A program made the position numbers and the translations under genes. From positions 1 to 64,000 of the forward strand of contig CAKKQC010000022.1 of the NCBI GenBank assembly GCA_919901855.1: a stretch of 64,000 nt of DNA. The letters run 5' to 3'. The notes under the pieces were generated by a model that ran no database searches, was not told the DNA's origin, and saw nothing but the letters and a program-made list of their open reading frames with translations. The stretch comes from a bacterium. Its GTDB lineage: Bacteria > Oederibacteriota > CAKKQC01. How positions within the stretch are numbered: position 1 is the stretch's first letter; each line of letters starts with the position of its first letter. This document shows, one piece after another, positions 42,538-50,725 of this stretch.

Positions 42538-44775
42538 ATGCGTTTCTTCCGGCCGCTCGTCGCGCTCTGGGCGGTCCTCGTCTGCGCCGGGTTCCTCGCT
42601 GCCGCCCCGTTTCCGAACGGCGTCGCCAGCCGGCTGGCGGCGGCGGCGAGCTGGCCCGTCCCTCCCGCCGGCGTGCCCGATCCTGGCGCGGCGGCCCTGC
42701 CGGCGTCGTGGATCGCGCTCGGGCGAGGTGCCGCCTGGGGTGCGCTCCTCGCCGCGACGGCCTGGACCGCCGGGCGGATGACCGCCCCGTGGCTGCGCCT
42801 GCCCCTCCTGCCCGCGGCGGCCGTCCCCGGCGCCGCCGGGCTCGTGATCTGCGGAACCGGAGCGCTCGGCCTCGGGCTGGCGGGGTTGGCGTTCGCGAGC
42901 GTGCTGCGCCTGGGCGTGTTGCTGCTCGCGCCCCTGGGGCTCGCCGCGGCGGGAGTCGCCGTGACGCGCTGGCGGCTCCACCGGCTCGGGACCGGCGGTT
43001 GGGCGATCGCCGCCGGGGGAGCGGTGGCCGCGCTCTGGACGCTGGCCGCCTTCAATCCCGAGCCCGGCATCGACGCGTACCTATACCACCTGCGCTTGCC
43101 CTTCATCTACCTCCTTCACCACCGGGTGCACCACGTATGGCACCACATCCACGGCCAGGTTCCCCAGGTCTGGGAGCTCCTGCTGATGGCGGTTCCGCCC
43201 CGGGATGCGGCGACCGCGGCGCAGGTGCTCTCGGCGCTGTGCGTCCTCCCCGTCGTCGCGCTCACGGTCGCGTTCGGGGGCGGCGGGGGCTCGGCGATTC
43301 TCGCGGCCCTGCTTCTGGTCTCGTCGCCGCTCGTCGTCGCCATCGGGACGTCGGCCTATACCGACCTGCCCCTCGTATGGCTCGGCGCCGCGTCGTTCGC
43401 CCTGCTCGTCATGCCGAACGCGTCGCCGTCACCGCCGCGGCGTTTCGCCGCGGGCGCCGTCCTTGGCGGCGCGTGCGCACTGAAGTACGCCGCGTTCCCG
43501 CTGGTCGTGGCGATGGGGGTGTGGCTCCTCGCGGGATCGGTGCGCCGCCGGGAATGGCGCTGGGCGTGGCCGTCCGCTGTCGGAATGCTGGCCGTCTTCC
43601 TGCCCTGGATTGGATGGAACTGGCTGGCGGCGGGGAATCCGGTCGATCCGTTTCTCGCGAGGTGGTTCCCCGACTCGCTGCCCGCCCTGCCTTTCGCGGA
43701 GCGGCTGAGCGGCGCGGTCCTGCGCCGGCCGTGGCGCGACGTCTTCGCGTCTCCGTGGTCGGCGTACGTCGCTTCGGAGCCGTTCCTGTTCGTAAGTCCG
43801 TGGCTCGTGGCGGCGGCGCCCGCCCTGCTGGCGGCCCCCGCGGCGCTGCGGTCCCTGCCAGGCTCCGGCCTCTGGCTCGCGGTCTGCGTCGCGGTCTGGG
43901 CGGCGCTGATCGCGGACGAGCGGTTCCTCCTGCCGGCGGCTCCCCTGGTCGCGGGGCTCCTCGCGCGCGCGGGATGGTGCCGGATGCCGGGCGCGATCGC
44001 GGCGGGCCTGCTCGTCCTGAACCTCGCCGGGGCCGTCCGCCAGGTATTCGTCCCCCTGCCGCGCCTGTGGACTGCGCTCGGGGTCGTGTCGCGCGACGCG
44101 TATCTCCGGGGCACGCTCATCCCCGCGCCCGGCTATGCCGACGCGGCGTCGTGGCTCAACAGCCACACCGCGGTCAAGGACCGGATCCTCGTGGTCTCGG
44201 ACTGTAAGAGCCACCTCATCTGGCGCGAATGCGTGACGGACCACGTCTACGATTACCCGACGCGGCTCGTCTGGATCCTGTGGGGCACGCCGGGTGGAGC
44301 TGTCCGCATCGCGGCGCGGTTCCGCCAGCTCGGCATCCGGTGGGTCCTGTACCTGCCCGGCCGCGCGGGAGAGCGCCTGGGGAACATGCCCGACCTCTTC
44401 GAGTTCCGGCCGGGCGAGGCGGCGTCGTGGGCCGCTTACTGGTCGACCCACGCGCGCCGCGCGTGGAGCGGCCCCGAGGCCGGGATCTACGGCCTCGACG
44501 TGCGCGCGCGGGCGCCCGCGGAACTCCCGGACCTCCCGGCCGTGCAGGAGGTTATGGCGTTCTCGGCCCGCCTGACGCTGCGGCGCGAGGGACCGGGGGC
44601 GCTAGTGACGGAGGTGCGCCGGTACGCGGCCGCGTACCCGAATGTGGGCGCGGCGCATCGCCTGGCGGGCGAGGTGCTCGTCAGCTTGGGGGGCGACTCG
44701 CTCACGCGGGCGGAAGGGCGGCGCGAACTGGAGACGGCCCGGCGGATCGAGGCGGCGGCGGGAGGGGAGCGGTGA
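42538..44775 (+). CDS. Large multipass membrane protein, GT-C glycosyltransferase-like
   Basis: A 745-residue protein with about a dozen or more hydrophobic helices and a soluble C-terminal part of roughly 200 residues. The first large loop after helix 4-5 holds NPEPGIDAYLYHLRLPFIYL, an acidic motif like that of GT-C transferases, and later YTDLPLVW and CALKYAAFPL resemble the ArnT/PMT-like fold. It probably transfers sugars from polyprenyl phosphate to an extracytoplasmic acceptor. The last 60 residues look TPR-like. A TATCTT -10-like element is 9 bases before the ATG. Its stop overlaps sixA (GTGA). Confidence 0.7.
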   Translation: MRFFRPLVALWAVLVCAGFLAAAPFPNGVASRLAAAASWPVPPAGVPDPGAAALPASWIALGRGAAWGALLAATAWTAGRMTAPWLRLPLLPAAAVPGAAGLVICGTGALGLGLAGLAFASVLRLGVLLLAPLGLAAAGVAVTRWRLHRLGTGGWAIAAGGAVAALWTLAAFNPEPGIDAYLYHLRLPFIYLLHHRVHHVWHHIHGQVPQVWELLLMAVPPRDAATAAQVLSALCVLPVVALTVAFGGGGGSAILAALLLVSSPLVVAIGTSAYTDLPLVWLGAASFALLVMPNASPSPPRRFAAGAVLGGACALKYAAFPLVVAMGVWLLAGSVRRREWRWAWPSAVGMLAVFLPWIGWNWLAAGNPVDPFLARWFPDSLPALPFAERLSGAVLRRPWRDVFASPWSAYVASEPFLFVSPWLVAAAPALLAAPAALRSLPGSGLWLAVCVAVWAALIADERFLLPAAPLVAGLLARAGWCRMPGAIAAGLLVLNLAGAVRQVFVPLPRLWTALGVVSRDAYLRGTLIPAPGYADAASWLNSHTAVKDRILVVSDCKSHLIWRECVTDHVYDYPTRLVWILWGTPGGAVRIAARFRQLGIRWVLYLPGRAGERLGNMPDLFEFRPGEAASWAAYWSTHARRAWSGPEAGIYGLDVRARAPAELPDLPAVQEVMAFSARLTLRREGPGALVTEVRRYAAAYPNVGAAHRLAGEVLVSLGGDSLTRAEGRRELETARRIEAAAGGER

Positions 44776-45242
44776 GGGTCGTTCTCATGCGCCACGGGCG
44801 GGCTGGCGACGCGCCGGTCGACGAGGAGCGCGCGCTCACGGAGGCGGGGCGCGAGGGCGTGGTGAAGGTGGCGCGGCGGCTCGCGTCGCTCGGGGTGACG
44901 GGCGCGGCGGTGCACTGCAGTCCGTACCGGCGGACGACGGAGACCGCCGCCATCGTGTCGCAGGAGACCGTTTCGGGCGCCGTGCTCCCGGATCCCCGGC
45001 TGGCGTCGGGCGCCACCGTGGACCTGCTCATCCGCGTGCTCGAGTCGCACGCGCGCTCTCCGCTAGTGGTCCTCGTGGGCCACATGCCGGATCTGGGCGT
45101 GCTCGCCGGGTGGCTGGCGTGGGGGACGCGGTCGCGGGTGATCGAGATGCCGGTCGGCGCCGCGGTTCAATTCACGGTCGAGTCCCTGCATCCGGAAGCG
45201 AAGGCAGTCATGGACTGGATGATCACGCCGCAGGATTTGTGA
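44772..45242 (+). CDS. sixA: SixA-like phosphohistidine phosphatase
   Basis: A 156-residue histidine phosphatase of branch 1. The catalytic MRHGRAGDA is at residues 6-14, the second region is HCSPYRRTTETA near residue 48, and VGHMPDLG near residue 103 gives the second catalytic His. SixA removes phosphate from His-containing phosphotransfer domains. GTG at 44772 overlaps the previous stop. Its pairing with a membrane glycosyltransferase-like gene is not explained. Confidence 0.85.
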   Translation: MRVVLMRHGRAGDAPVDEERALTEAGREGVVKVARRLASLGVTGAAVHCSPYRRTTETAAIVSQETVSGAVLPDPRLASGATVDLLIRVLESHARSPLVVLVGHMPDLGVLAGWLAWGTRSRVIEMPVGAAVQFTVESLHPEAKAVMDWMITPQDL

Positions 45243-45294: not shown

Positions 45295-46242
45295 ATGAAG
45301 ACGTTTCGTATCGCCCTCGCTGCCGTCCCTTTCCTCCTGACGCTCGCCGCGTCCGCCGCCGTCACGCCGCCACCCGCCGAGATGCCCCGGAAGGTTGCCG
45401 GCGTTCCGGCCCCGACCGGATGGGCGCCCGGGACCGGGCAACTGCCCGTCCTCGCGCCGGTCCCGGCCGGCCGGTCCTTCGCCTTCGTCGTGCTGGGCGA
45501 CAACCGCGGGGAGGCTTCGGGCAAGCTCAGGTCCGTCTTCGTTGAGATGCTGCGCGCGATGAGCGCGGAATCGCCCGCGTTCGTACTACAGACCGGCGAC
45601 ATGATCAGCGGTTACGAGACGGAAGAGGGCCCCCTGCGCCGCCAGTGGGCGGCGTACGTCGACGGCTTGAAGAATTCGGGACTGCTGGTCTTCCATGCGC
45701 CCGGGAATCACGACATCTTCGACGCCGCCAGCGCGCGCATCTACCGCGAGCTCTGGGGTTCGACGTGGTACGACTTCGACTACGGGGACGCCCGGTTCAT
45801 CGCCCTCGACACCACCACCCTGTCCAACCGGCTGGGCGAGGCGCAGGAGGCGTGGCTGGCGGCCCGGCTGGATTCGGCGGCGGGGAAGCGCGTCTTCGTC
45901 TTCTTTCACTCTCCCCCCTTTCCCGTGGACGGGCACCGGGGCAGTTCCCTCGACAAGTACCCGGCCGACCGTGACCGCCTGCACGCGCTGTTCGTGAAGT
46001 ACAAGGACCGGATCAAGGGCGTGTACTCCGGCCACGAACACGTGTACAGCTTCCAGGAGAAGGACGGCGTGCCGTACTACATCACGGGCGGTGCGGGCGC
46101 GCACCTGTACGCCAAACCCGAAGCGGGCGGGTTTCACCACTGCCTCATCGTCCGCGTGACGGCGACCGACGTGAAGACCGAGGTGCGCCGGTTCGGGGAA
46201 GAGACCGGGAAGCCGAAGCCAGCTCCGGCGGCGGCGCGGTAG
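45295..46242 (+). CDS. Exported calcineurin-like metallophosphoesterase
   Basis: A 315-residue protein with a cleavable signal peptide (IALAAVPFLLTLAASAAV) and a calcineurin-type dimetal phosphoesterase domain: VVLGDNRGEA, QTGDMISGY, HAPGNHDIF, VFFHSPPFP and VYSGHEHVYSF hold the metal ligands in the usual order. It should hydrolyse a phosphate ester in the periplasm or at the surface, as in purple-acid-phosphatase-like enzymes. The substrate is unknown. Confidence 0.9.
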   Translation: MKTFRIALAAVPFLLTLAASAAVTPPPAEMPRKVAGVPAPTGWAPGTGQLPVLAPVPAGRSFAFVVLGDNRGEASGKLRSVFVEMLRAMSAESPAFVLQTGDMISGYETEEGPLRRQWAAYVDGLKNSGLLVFHAPGNHDIFDAASARIYRELWGSTWYDFDYGDARFIALDTTTLSNRLGEAQEAWLAARLDSAAGKRVFVFFHSPPFPVDGHRGSSLDKYPADRDRLHALFVKYKDRIKGVYSGHEHVYSFQEKDGVPYYITGGAGAHLYAKPEAGGFHHCLIVRVTATDVKTEVRRFGEETGKPKPAPAAAR

Positions 46243-46274
46243 CCTTCTTCCTGGCGATAGGGGGGAGGATCGGC

Positions 46275-49250
46275 GTGCAGCGTTCCCGCGCGGGTGCCGG
46301 TTGGTTTCCCGGGCTGCGCCGGTTCCTGCGGGAACACGCTCCGTCCTCCCCGGCGGCGGGGGCGCTGGCGTGGCCCGCGCTGGCCGTGGCCCTGATCCCG
46401 CCGTTCGAGTATTTCCAGCGGGGGCTGTACGGCAACGAAGTCGCGACCGCGATCGTGAGCCTCATTCTGCTCGCCGGCACCTGCGCTGCGTGTTTCCTGG
46501 CCCGTTCGGGCGGATGGGCTCCGGGGGGCGGCGCGGCGGCGCGGTGGTTGGCGGCGGTTCTCGCCGCCGCCGGGGTCTCGGCGGCGGCCAACGGCGCGTT
46601 CCTGGAAGGCCTGCCCGCCGTGTCCGTGACTCTGGCCGGCGTGGCGGGGTTCCTCCTCCTCTCGGGATGGGGGAAGCGCGTCGGCGCGGGCCGGGCTCTC
46701 GCCGCGGGGCTGGCGGCGGGCGGGGCGCTGGCGGGCCTCTACGGGGTCGCGCAGGCGCAGGGCGGCATCGAGGTGTCCGCGGCGGCACTCGCGGACCTGC
46801 GGACGCGGGTGCCCGGGCTGGCTGAGCAGGTGGCCGCGAGGATCGCGGAGGGCCGGGCGTTCGCGTTCTTCCTCTACCCGAGCGCCCTCGCGGGTTATCT
46901 CATCCTCGCGCTCCCGTTCGGGGTTGCGGGCTGGATGGAGGGATCCCGGTGGCGCTGGGCGTGGGGGGGCGCCGCCGCGCTCGCCGCGGCGGGTCTCGTC
47001 GCTTCGGGGTCGATCGGCGCCGCCGCCGCGCTCGCGCTCGCGATCGTGGCGGTCGAGATCGCCTCCCGGTCCCGGCGAGTGGTGCCGGTCGTCGGCGCCC
47101 TCGTCCTCTTCGCCGCGATCCTGGCGTGGCGGGGGCCTGGCGCGCTCGGCTCGGGGATGGCGGTCAAGTTGGCGCACTGGCGGACTATGGCCGGGCTCGC
47201 TCCATCGACGCTCTCGCTGGCGGCCGGGCGGGGACCCGGCAGCTACGGGGCGGCGGCGTCGGCGGCCCTGCCCCCCGCGATCTGGTCCCGGTACGCGCAC
47301 GACTGGCCGCTCGAGACCTGGATCGAGCAGGGGCTGGTCGGGCTCGTGCCGCTTCTCGGCTTCCTCGCGGTCGGTCTCTTCGCGTGGCGAAGAATGACTT
47401 GCGGTCGCCCGGATGTCTGGCGGTCGGCGCTGGCCGTGGCGTGGCTGGCCGGACTCGTTCATGTATTGACCGACTTCGACTACGTGCTCCCCGCCGTCTC
47501 GTTCCCGTGGTGGTGCCTGACCGGCTGGCTCGTCGCGGTGAGTCCAGGATCTCCGGGGGCGCCCGCGCTCGAGCGAGCGTGGCGGTGGCTGACCGGAGTG
47601 GCATCGGCGCTCCGAAAACGCGGCCTTCCGTTCCTCCTCCCGGTCCTCGTCCTGCCACTCATCCTCCTCAAGGGCACTTCGGCTGTGCTCTGGGAGTCCG
47701 CGGTGCTCGGGATCGCCGTGGCCGCGTTTTGGGGCGCTCGGTGTCTGGGTGGCCTTCGGCCGGTGGTGGGACGCGCGGACCTGCCGTGGATTGGCCTGCT
47801 CGTGCTCGCGGCGGGGTGGGCGCTGTTCTCGTCCCGGCCGGATGCGTCGTACACGGCATTGCTGGTCACGGCCGGCGTGTTTGCCGCGGTCCTGCTCGTG
47901 CGCGCGCTGGCCCGGGTCAGCCTCCGCGTCGAGTCCTCCATGAGGGCATCCGTGCTCGGGGCGACGATCGTGATCGGCGGGTGGGGGATCGTCGAGTCGG
48001 TCATGAGGCATTTGCCGGCGATGGCAGGTTTTCCGAGTCCTAACTTCCTTGGGGCGTTCCTCGTGTTCGGCGGCGGGCTCGCATTGGGGTCGATCGGAAA
48101 GGGAGGTCTGTTGCCGGCCGGCGCGCTGGCCATCGCCGTCGCCGGGATCGCGGCGACGCGGTCGGCGGGAGCCGGGCTGGCGGCCTGTGCGGTGGCGGGA
48201 GGATGGTTGGCCGTTGAGATGGTTCGCACGCACGGCCACCGGAGGCTGGTGGCGTTCGCGAGTTTGGCGATGGTCATCATGGTGGCCGCGTGGGGGACCT
48301 CGCGCATCGAGGCGCTGAGCCTCGTCCAGCGCCTGGCGATGTGGCGTGAGGCGACGCACCTGATCGTCCTCGCGCCCGAAGGGTGGGGGCCGCGCTCGTA
48401 CGCGGATGCCGTCTTGAGGGTGCAGGAGCCCTCGATCACGGTGGCCGGGGTCGGCCGGTACTCGCTCGTGGCCCAGTTCGCGCACTGCGAGCCGCTCCAG
48501 TTCGCGGCCGAGTGGGGCGTGGCCGGGCTCGGGCTCCTCTTGTGGGGCCTCGTGCTCGCGTGGCTGGCGGCGGGCCGGGGTCCGGCCTCCGCGTGGCGTC
48601 TTGCGCTCGGTGGCGTCCTCATCCACGGGCTCGTGGACTTTCCGCTGCGCGCGCCGCCGATCCTGATGCTTGCGGCAACGGCCATCGCCTTCATGGCGAT
48701 GGGGGGGCGTTCGTCCGGAGGCGCGAAGGCGCCGAGGGTCTCCCCGGCCGGCGCGGCGCTCTGCGCCGTGCTCGCGTGCTGGTTGGGTGTCCAATGGGTC
48801 AGACCGGCGGTTTCGCGATCGTCACGCGAGCATGAGGCGACCTTGAGCAGGCCGCCCTCGTTCTGGCGCAACCGGGCACTGGCCGCCTGGCCGATGCGGG
48901 CCGCGGAAGAGCCGCCGAAGCCGGGGCTCGTCCTGGATTCGGGTTCGGAGCAGCGGAACGGCATGCTCCGGCTCGATCGGCTTGACCGTGATGCGGCGGG
49001 CCGTTTCTTCCGTGAGGAACTCGCCCGGGAGCCGTTCCGCCTCGATGCCCATGTCGGGCTCGGAGACCTGGCGCGGGCCCGGGGCGACTTCGCGGAGGCG
49101 CGTAGTTGGTATCGAAAGGCGCTCCTGCTGCGATCCTGCATGGTCCGGCGTCCCGGACTGAACGACTATGAGCGTGCGCTCATCCAGCCGGGCCCCGCGT
49201 TCGAGCGGGCGGTCCGCCGCAGGCTTCTTGATCTGGGCGGTGAACGATGA
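46275..49250 (+). CDS. Double O-antigen-ligase-like membrane protein with TPR tail
   Basis: A 991-residue polytopic protein that appears to contain two Wzy/WaaL-like units. Each has a run of hydrophobic helices and a periplasmic loop with the typical pattern: GRGPGSYGAAASA...DWPLETWIEQGLVGLVPL in the first half and GWGPRSYADAVL...CEPLQFAAEWGVAGLGLL in the second. Family length is 400-500 residues, so this is about twice the norm. The last 130 residues are soluble and TPR-like. A role in polymerising or ligating surface glycans is inferred. GTG at 46275; its stop overlaps lnt (ATGA). Confidence 0.75.
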   Translation: MQRSRAGAGWFPGLRRFLREHAPSSPAAGALAWPALAVALIPPFEYFQRGLYGNEVATAIVSLILLAGTCAACFLARSGGWAPGGGAAARWLAAVLAAAGVSAAANGAFLEGLPAVSVTLAGVAGFLLLSGWGKRVGAGRALAAGLAAGGALAGLYGVAQAQGGIEVSAAALADLRTRVPGLAEQVAARIAEGRAFAFFLYPSALAGYLILALPFGVAGWMEGSRWRWAWGGAAALAAAGLVASGSIGAAAALALAIVAVEIASRSRRVVPVVGALVLFAAILAWRGPGALGSGMAVKLAHWRTMAGLAPSTLSLAAGRGPGSYGAAASAALPPAIWSRYAHDWPLETWIEQGLVGLVPLLGFLAVGLFAWRRMTCGRPDVWRSALAVAWLAGLVHVLTDFDYVLPAVSFPWWCLTGWLVAVSPGSPGAPALERAWRWLTGVASALRKRGLPFLLPVLVLPLILLKGTSAVLWESAVLGIAVAAFWGARCLGGLRPVVGRADLPWIGLLVLAAGWALFSSRPDASYTALLVTAGVFAAVLLVRALARVSLRVESSMRASVLGATIVIGGWGIVESVMRHLPAMAGFPSPNFLGAFLVFGGGLALGSIGKGGLLPAGALAIAVAGIAATRSAGAGLAACAVAGGWLAVEMVRTHGHRRLVAFASLAMVIMVAAWGTSRIEALSLVQRLAMWREATHLIVLAPEGWGPRSYADAVLRVQEPSITVAGVGRYSLVAQFAHCEPLQFAAEWGVAGLGLLLWGLVLAWLAAGRGPASAWRLALGGVLIHGLVDFPLRAPPILMLAATAIAFMAMGGRSSGGAKAPRVSPAGAALCAVLACWLGVQWVRPAVSRSSREHEATLSRPPSFWRNRALAAWPMRAAEEPPKPGLVLDSGSEQRNGMLRLDRLDRDAAGRFFREELAREPFRLDAHVGLGDLARARGDFAEARSWYRKALLLRSCMVRRPGLNDYERALIQPGPAFERAVRRRLLDLGGER

Positions 49251-50725
49251 ACCTCGGCCTCGTGATCATCTCCGGCCTGCTCGTTTCGCTCTCGTTCCCG
49301 AGCTGGCTCGTGAACGGACTGCATCCGTGGACGGGGTGGCTGGCGTGGATCGCGCTCGTCCCCGCGCTGATCGCGCTCGAGCGCATGCCCCCGGGCCGGG
49401 CCGCGTTCGCGGGCTGGGTCGGCGGTCTCGTGTGCTGGCTGAGCACGATCTACTGGGTTGCCGCGATCCGCGAGATGGACTACTTTCGGCTCCCCGCGTG
49501 GCTCCTCTTCGCCGGCACCCTCGCCGGGTACTGGGCGTTCTGGGGCTGGCTGGTAGCCCGCGCGGGCCCGCGCCGGGCCCTCTGGGTGGCGCCCGCCGCC
49601 TGGGGAGTGGCCGAGTGGCTTCGTAGCTGGCTCTTCACGGGGTTCCCCTGGACTCCGCTGGGCGCGTCCCAGTGGGCGGCCCCCGCCCTCTTCCTCTCGG
49701 CCCGGTTCATCGGCGTCCTCGGGGTCGGCGTCGCGATCGTGGCCTTCAACGGGGCGGTGCGGGCGCTCCTCGTGCCACGGGAGCGCCGGTGGCCCGCCAT
49801 CGCTCTCGGCGGGGCGGCCATCGCGGCCCTCCTCGCCCTGTCCCCGGTCGCCGGACGGCACATCGCCCGGGACCTTGCGGGCGCCCGCACGGTCCGGATG
49901 GCCCTGCTCCAGGGCGGATTCAACGAGGAGGAGAAGAACGTTCTGCCGATCGATATCCTCGTCGCCCGGTACGAGATGCTCGCGCGGCAGGCGGCGGCCG
50001 ACCATCCCGCGGTCATGGTCTGGCCCGAGACCGCCGTCGCGTGCGCGATCCAGGCGCCGGGACTCCTCCCGCGACTCCGGAAGGTGGCCAAGGACACCCG
50101 CGCGGCCCAGCTCATGGGCGCGCTCAACGAGGCTCCCGGAGGCGTGATCCAGAACGGCGTCTTCCTGGTTACCGCCAAGGGAGTGGAAGGCGGCTACCTC
50201 AAGATGCGCCTCGTGCCTTTCGGAGAATACATCCCGGCGTGGTTCCGCGCGGTCTCGCCGGTGGCGCGCAAGCTGATCTCGATGCTCGTCGACCTCTCGC
50301 CGGGGACCGGGCCCGTCACGATCGCCCTGCCCGGAGGTGGCGCGGCGGGAGCCGAGGTCTGTTACGAGGCGGTGTTCGCCGCGCACGGCCGGATGATGGC
50401 GCTCCACGGCGCCGAGGTCCTCGTGAACGTGACCAACGACGCCTGGTACTGGCGCACCGCCGCCACCTGGCAGCACGCGCTGGGCCCGGTCTCCCGCGCG
50501 GTCGAGTGCGGGCGCGACCTCGTGCGGTGCGCGAACACGGGCGCGACGCTGACCGTTTCGCCCCGCGGCGAGGTGGCGGGCGATATCCCGCTCTTCGTTC
50601 CGGGCGTCCAGATCGCGGATGTCCGCCTCATTGCCGGCCGGACGGCCTGGGTGCGGATGGGCGACCGGCCCCTCCTGATCGTGCTCGCGTGCCTTCTCCT
50701 CTTCGCGGTCCGGCGGCGGGACTAG
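49247..50725 (+). CDS. lnt: Apolipoprotein N-acyltransferase
   Basis: A 492-residue inner-membrane enzyme that adds the third acyl chain to lipoproteins. An N-terminal membrane part with about six helices (including PWTGWLAWIALVPAL and GFPWTPLGASQW) is followed by a nitrilase-like periplasmic domain with the catalytic Glu in VWPETAV, Lys in GGYLKMRLVPFGEYIP and Cys in AEVCYEAVF. It agrees with the LolC/E-LolD proteins encoded in this window in marking an outer membrane with lipoproteins. Confidence 0.93.
   Translation: MNLGLVIISGLLVSLSFPSWLVNGLHPWTGWLAWIALVPALIALERMPPGRAAFAGWVGGLVCWLSTIYWVAAIREMDYFRLPAWLLFAGTLAGYWAFWGWLVARAGPRRALWVAPAAWGVAEWLRSWLFTGFPWTPLGASQWAAPALFLSARFIGVLGVGVAIVAFNGAVRALLVPRERRWPAIALGGAAIAALLALSPVAGRHIARDLAGARTVRMALLQGGFNEEEKNVLPIDILVARYEMLARQAAADHPAVMVWPETAVACAIQAPGLLPRLRKVAKDTRAAQLMGALNEAPGGVIQNGVFLVTAKGVEGGYLKMRLVPFGEYIPAWFRAVSPVARKLISMLVDLSPGTGPVTIALPGGGAAGAEVCYEAVFAAHGRMMALHGAEVLVNVTNDAWYWRTAATWQHALGPVSRAVECGRDLVRCANTGATLTVSPRGEVAGDIPLFVPGVQIADVRLIAGRTAWVRMGDRPLLIVLACLLLFAVRRRD

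Follow-up and report, generated by a model that had tools for sequence, protein, structure and literature searches.

The coordination of polymerization, ligation, and acceptor choice on periplasmic lipid-linked glycans is poorly understood, and one gene in the window (the whole 64,000-nucleotide stretch of contig CAKKQC010000022.1 analyzed here) raises the question of what two ligase-like units might do within a single polypeptide. The initial annotation had read the 991-residue product as two O-antigen-ligase-like units fused in one chain and followed by TPR-like helices. It had further proposed that such an arrangement could couple polymerization with ligation of a surface glycan. The motifs behind that reading lie where they were claimed to lie. 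GPGSY (residues 320-324) and WIEQGLVGL (349-357) are both found in the first half of the protein, and GPRSY (705-709) and FAAEWGVAGL (743-752) are both found in the second. The reading frame from 46275 to 49250 is uninterrupted, and the gene and its product comprise the following features.

46264..46269, forward strand: GGAGGA ribosome-binding-like site, 5 nt ahead of the GTG, read by eye from the sequence.
46275..49250, forward strand: open reading frame of the tandem O-antigen-ligase-type protein, 991 aa, with a GTG start and orthologues across the phylum.
46371..47558, forward strand: unit A, the first Wzy_C/GT-CB-type unit, residues 33-428 (leave-one-out profile; orthologue model).
47166..47168, forward strand: Lys298 of unit A, aligned with WaaL Arg265 (7TPG alignment and residue table).
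47298..47300, forward strand: His342 of unit A, aligned with WaaL His313 (7TPG alignment and residue table).
47619..48821, forward strand: unit B, the second Wzy_C/GT-CB-type unit, residues 449-849 (leave-one-out profile; window model).
48330..48332, forward strand: Arg686 of unit B, aligned with WaaL Arg265 (7TPG alignment and residue table).
48483..48485, forward strand: His737 of unit B, aligned with WaaL His313 (7TPG alignment and residue table).
48738..48794, forward strand: extra hydrophobic helix after unit B, residues 822-840, by which the TPR tail is predicted to end up outside (hydropathy averaged over 24 orthologues).
48969..49130, forward strand: TPR tail, residues about 899-952 (TPR_16 26-30 bits, TPR_2 21.6-23.8 bits, all below the cut-off).

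Compared as a single sequence, the whole window protein reached 24 bits against the Pfam model Wzy_C (PF04932), for which the cut-off is 31.7 bits. A Pfam scan of each isolated window half gave no Wzy_C match, and a six-frame scan matched both halves below the cut-off, at 26.2 and 18.9 bits. Direct comparison of one half with the other by BLASTP was weak (24.6 bits, 29% over 133 columns). An alignment of 24 family members was divided at window residue 448 into a unit A and a unit B set of 23 rows each, the near-copy L042 being left out of both. Family profiles built without the window recognized its unit A at 155.9 bits (E 7.7e-47, residues 33-428) and its unit B at 103.2 bits (E 6.7e-31, residues 449-849), and the maxima over 1000 locally shuffled copies were 5.2 and 3.8 bits for the unit A and unit B profiles, respectively. 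These leave-one-out matches bear out the claim that two homologous ligase-type units form a built-in pseudo-dimer in one chain. Aligned with each other, the two profiles matched over 327 columns (probability 100; E 1.9e-41 excluding the window, E 5.2e-40 including it); polytopic YfhO neighbors, serving as the control in this profile-profile test, reached probabilities of 0.1-0.7. Searched as isolated halves, 22 of 23 unit As and 22 of 23 unit Bs matched Pfam Wzy_C at E<=0.01, the sole miss in each set being the window's own half. It is therefore both halves, via their orthologues, that match the family, and not one of them only. Mean column identity is 38% in unit A and 40% in unit B, so that the two are about equally conserved. 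Judged by sequence, both units belong to the Wzy_C superfamily (PF04932; GT121-like). The TPR helices reported behind them are real but short, at residues about 899-952; TPR models are strong in the orthologue L041, and in the window protein every TPR model stays below its cut-off.

A profile of the whole protein searched against the PDB was dominated by TPR proteins, which made up most of the best 60 rows, and the protein was therefore split into its units for this search. The only convincing solved-structure match of the unit profiles was the O-antigen ligase WaaL (7TPG), with E 8.4e-7 for unit A and 4.6e-9 for unit B; the same profile search of solved structures gave no sequence-profile match to SEDS enzymes for either unit. 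Structure prediction likewise points to halves of the WaaL/FtsW kind. The model of the orthologue L070 is fair (mean pLDDT 72.8, pTM 0.64), and AlphaFold modeled the window protein poorly, with a mean pLDDT of 50.6, too low for description. In the L070 model, residues 6-411 align by VIA with WaaL 7TPG (Z 20.9, rmsd 4.7, 356 residues aligned) and residues 430-827 with FtsW 8p1u (Z 16.3, rmsd 4.8, 310 aligned). Unit B matches WaaL only in the poor window model (VIA: Z 13.2, rmsd 5.3, 279 aligned), whereas in the better L070 model it matches FtsW. Foldseek alone returned TPR or other helical-repeat proteins fitting the tail among the 50 matches listed, and WaaL emerged only via VIA. By mean hydropathy across 24 orthologues, unit A has 12 helices and unit B has 13; in both units a long loop joins helix 9 to helix 10. 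On the models, the 12-helix GT-CB fold is present. If, as we infer, the N-terminus is cytoplasmic, both the loops between helices 9 and 10 and the TPR tail are predicted to face the periplasm.

Among 59 genomes, the window's own included, 27 contain relatives of the window protein at E<=1e-5; a first contig scan with the window protein had returned no relative. Named members of the family come from Candidatus Goldbacteria/Goldiibacteriota and FCPU426 MAGs, together with records that stand under other or no phylum names, and the window genome was assigned to this phylum via kinship codes. Both units lie in one reading frame in 42 of the 45 phylum genomes. In 37 of the 45, one match to the profile of 24 aligned members spans both units, and five further genomes (G010, G016, G032, G034, and G041) carry both units, either cut by contig ends or as two separate matches. 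The A-B order was verified unit by unit in 15 more loci, including four of those five genomes, and the tandem of G041 comes from the whole-protein profile scan alone. In G001 the match stops within unit A at a contig end, and the profile scan of the 45 phylum genomes found no tandem in G004 or G043. Outside the phylum, no match in any of 339 genomes covered both units at E<=1e-40, in a scan that scored the best two candidates per genome and could miss weaker tandems. A-type and B-type proteins are encoded there by separate genes, and both are present in at least 13 of the 339 genomes (read from the table). Single A-type products measure about 420-450 aa and B-type products about 620-660 aa, the latter with the TPR part of the profile. 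In one genome outside the phylum (G275), a B-like gene comes immediately after the A gene. Presence of the fusion in nearly all phylum genomes, with relatives elsewhere as separate genes, is evidence that the units work together, and it suggests a physical link between two sugar-transfer steps in this phylum.

Other Wzy_C genes accompany the tandem. Counting the tandem units, each phylum genome has 3 to 29 Wzy_C matches at E<=1e-4. The window genome (G000) holds the most of the 45 with 29 matches, the others ranging from 3 to 16, and it has three Wzy_C genes in a row on contig C38 and pairs on C40 and C5 (L068, L138, L141). The same genome encodes a 1016-aa Wzy_C protein (L188, G000:C42, 799-3846) with 16 hydrophobic segments by a simple scan. 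That is more than one unit needs, and only one unit of this protein is well recognized by profile.

As to its origin, the tandem most probably goes back to an ancient joining of two distinct paralogues. A mixture-model tree was built from 74 rows, after 33 near-duplicates and long branches had been removed from the 107 collected. All unit As form one clade (19/19 rows, 100/93). Certain single-unit proteins, mostly lacking TPR, lie closer to it than unit B does (80/81, unstarred). A recent internal duplication is not favored, given this position of unit A. The unit Bs form a second clade that contains one single-unit protein and leaves the window's unit B outside. In both trees the latter pairs with L139, a single-unit protein encoded in the same genome (G000; 98/94 in the 74-row tree). 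An AU test on the 107-row tree did not reject grouping it with the other unit Bs (p 0.39), and letter composition varies strongly from one row to another. Unit B may have been replaced in the window's lineage.

The catalytic positions of both units can be read against those of WaaL. PMC10920833 gives Arg191 and Arg265 of that enzyme as phosphate-binding residues and His313 as the proposed acceptor activator; for four of five related inverting polymerase families of clan GT-C1, GT127 being the exception, it gives Asp or Glu at the acceptor-activating position. In HMMER alignments, WaaL His313 corresponds to His342 in unit A and His737 in unit B of the window protein, and Arg265 corresponds to Lys298 and Arg686. 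Among tandem proteins that reach the His313 position, unit A has His in 40 of 41 and unit B in 37 of 40, a count composed of 24 alignment rows, 15 loci (one of which ends ahead of the unit-B His), and two more. As aligned, both units of the window protein carry the GT121 His that corresponds to WaaL His313, and both carry this His in place of the Asp or Glu of most GT-C1 polymerases.

The arginines are less regular. At the Arg265 position, unit A has Lys or Arg in 24 of 24 members, and unit B has Arg in 22 of 24 and Lys in two. At the Arg191 position, all 24 unit As have a hydrophobic residue, and 15 of 24 unit Bs have Lys or Arg; the window protein has Ile there in unit A and Ala in unit B. 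This lack of conservation makes both sites non-standard, and because the two units do not carry the pair Arg191 and Arg265, neither is filed as GT121 and both are placed in the superfamily only. Arg286 is present in 23 of 24 unit As. Among seven single A-type genes from outside the phylum, five have Lys or Arg at the Arg191 position and no Arg286 (two of the five have Lys in place of Arg286), and one of the remaining two has Arg286. From this small set we infer that the phosphate-binding Arg of unit A may have moved to Arg286. The invariant residues of the two units also differ, with R194, H396, D400, and D402 in unit A and E739 and H792 in unit B.

The reading that we prefer, with about even confidence, is that the protein is a single-chain, two-site cell-envelope glycan transferase composed of two WaaL-type GT-CB units arranged head to tail and a TPR tail. 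Each unit would take a glycan from a lipid-diphosphate carrier and pass it to an acceptor hydroxyl activated by the unit's own His. The two sites would serve two steps of one glycoconjugate, either as successive transfers or as transfer to two acceptors brought together. The TPR tail, predicted to be periplasmic, would hold the acceptor or a partner protein, and the fusion would keep both activities one to one and side by side. A more daring proposal, which we put forward tentatively, is a phylum-specific relay enzyme in which the two GT-CB sites would transfer a lipid-linked glycan twice in succession. The glycan might, for example, go first onto a carrier or oligosaccharide and then onto a lipid or protein that the TPR tail holds as the final acceptor. 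Were this correct, the protein would be, to our knowledge, the first obligate two-site fusion in the GT-CB enzyme class.

Members that have lost a His bear on how the two sites divide the work. The three unit-B losses are those of the three genomes of family f13 (L057, L061, and L062); in all three, the unit-B His is replaced by Gly and the Arg265 equivalent by Lys, with unit A intact. The single unit-A loss, from His to Ser, is found in the tandem of G027 (L056:7443-10748), a genome that also encodes a free-standing unit A (L067) with its His kept. A chain with one intact site is thus tolerated, which agrees with a reading in which one unit is enzymatic and the other a structural or regulatory partner within a locked pseudo-dimer. 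The absence of an Arg at the WaaL R191 position from all 24 aligned unit As points the same way. Such a division of labor seems doubtful all the same, since almost every member, across 14 family codes, retains both His residues, the damaged unit A of G027 is accompanied by its intact free-standing counterpart, and neither unit is the less conserved of the two to any marked degree.

Less probable is a chain that combines a polymerase with a ligase, one unit extending a carrier-bound glycan and the other transferring it to an acceptor. The fusion of two different paralogues seen in the tree, their differing sets of invariant residues, and the missing R191 equivalent of unit A would all suit this scheme. 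We nevertheless consider it unlikely, because both units have His where PMC10920833 places Asp or Glu in four of five polymerase families. The coupling of polymerization to ligation suggested in the initial annotation therefore finds no support in these residues, which are of the ligase type in both units. That two independent ligases with unrelated acceptors share a chain by chance is improbable. The window genome is indeed rich in single Wzy_C genes, several of them adjacent, but a chain shared by chance should in time come apart again, and in this deep phylum 42 of 45 genomes retain the fusion. An assembly or annotation artefact joining two genes is refuted by the uninterrupted frame and by the recurrence of this order in 42 of 45 genomes, and its probability is negligible.

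The two-site glycan transferase favored here can be viewed against its gene neighborhood, which in the window consists of the following genes.

42538..44775, forward strand: PMT_2-type GT-C membrane glycosyltransferase (PMT_2 32.8 bits).
44778..45242, forward strand: SixA-like histidine phosphatase (His_Phos_1 32.0 bits).
45295..46242, forward strand: metallophosphoesterase, upstream of the tandem gene (Metallophos 39.9 bits).
49247..50725, forward strand: lnt, apolipoprotein N-acyltransferase (LNT_N 87.7 bits, CN_hydrolase 75.2 bits).

The stop codon of the tandem gene overlaps the ATG of lnt (read by eye). In G001, which belongs to the same family as the window, a SixA-like protein is encoded directly upstream of the orthologue and a PMT_2-like protein in the matching place (both by eye). 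Outside the window's family, aroQ, encoding type II dehydroquinase, lies immediately upstream on the same strand and within 250 bp at 34 of 37 tandem loci, namely those with enough upstream sequence for evaluation (upstream regions L041-L065 and L151-L165). At the other three loci, all from one genus, aroQ lies 2.3-4.9 kb upstream. Genes for single units also have aroQ next to them, of B type in G275 and in G137 and of A type in a record titled Verrucomicrobiota (L080). Searches for type II dehydroquinase were negative in G000 and G001, which represent the window's family and have no aroQ link, and in G004 and G043, the genomes without a tandem. Shared operon history is the only explanation that we offer for the link. 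Other neighbors of the orthologues vary by family and include a YfhO-type membrane protein and a sigma factor, with GT2 and family 4 (PF00953) glycosyltransferases downstream at some loci.

Protein O-oligosaccharyltransferases of the PglL/TfpO type are marked by PglL_A or Wzy_C_2 domains or by a pilin neighbor. Neither domain was among the Pfam matches of the window protein or its orthologues, and the upstream neighbor of the orthologues is aroQ and no pilin. Reading that neighbor as a pilin, and hence the tandem as a TfpO-type pilin transferase, was considered and dropped once its sequence proved to be aroQ. LpxC is encoded in 44 of the 45 phylum genomes and a Kdo transferase domain in 40 of 45; the window's genome encodes both LpxC and Kdo transferase, which makes lipid A acceptors plausible. 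Lipid acceptors are thus possible for the tandem enzyme, and protein acceptors likewise. Given the many other Wzy_C genes per genome, the role of main ligase does not necessarily fall to the tandem.

The two-unit architecture is real and conserved. It is also apparently undescribed, as judged by a literature search whose coverage lay mostly outside subscription papers and domain-architecture databases and which, by phrase, title, and abstract opening, found no such two-unit fusion. The tandem offers an intact two-site protein for structural work, and its paired, mutable His residues make the question of how two sites cooperate testable.

Comparison with known systems places the tandem close to several enzyme types. 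With WaaL (GT121; PDB 7TPG/7TPJ) it has in common the fold class, the 12-helix unit, and the His in the long loop between helices 9 and 10. WaaL, however, consists of one unit, whereas the window protein joins two and adds a TPR tail, and the R191 position is not conserved in the tandem. The SEDS enzymes FtsW and RodA (GT119) share the GT-CB structural class, as illustrated by the match of L070 unit B to FtsW 8p1u, yet according to PMC10920833 they have Asp where the tandem units have His. Single-unit Wzy_C proteins, with or without TPR and from the same or other phyla, include the related A-type and B-type genes but hold one unit per chain. WadA, which PMC10920833 describes as a bimodular O-antigen ligase of GT25 and GT121, resembles the tandem in that its single chain unites an O-antigen ligase with another glycosyltransferase. 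Its fusion partner, as described there, is a globular GT25 domain, whereas in the tandem protein a ligase-type unit is joined to a second unit of its own kind.
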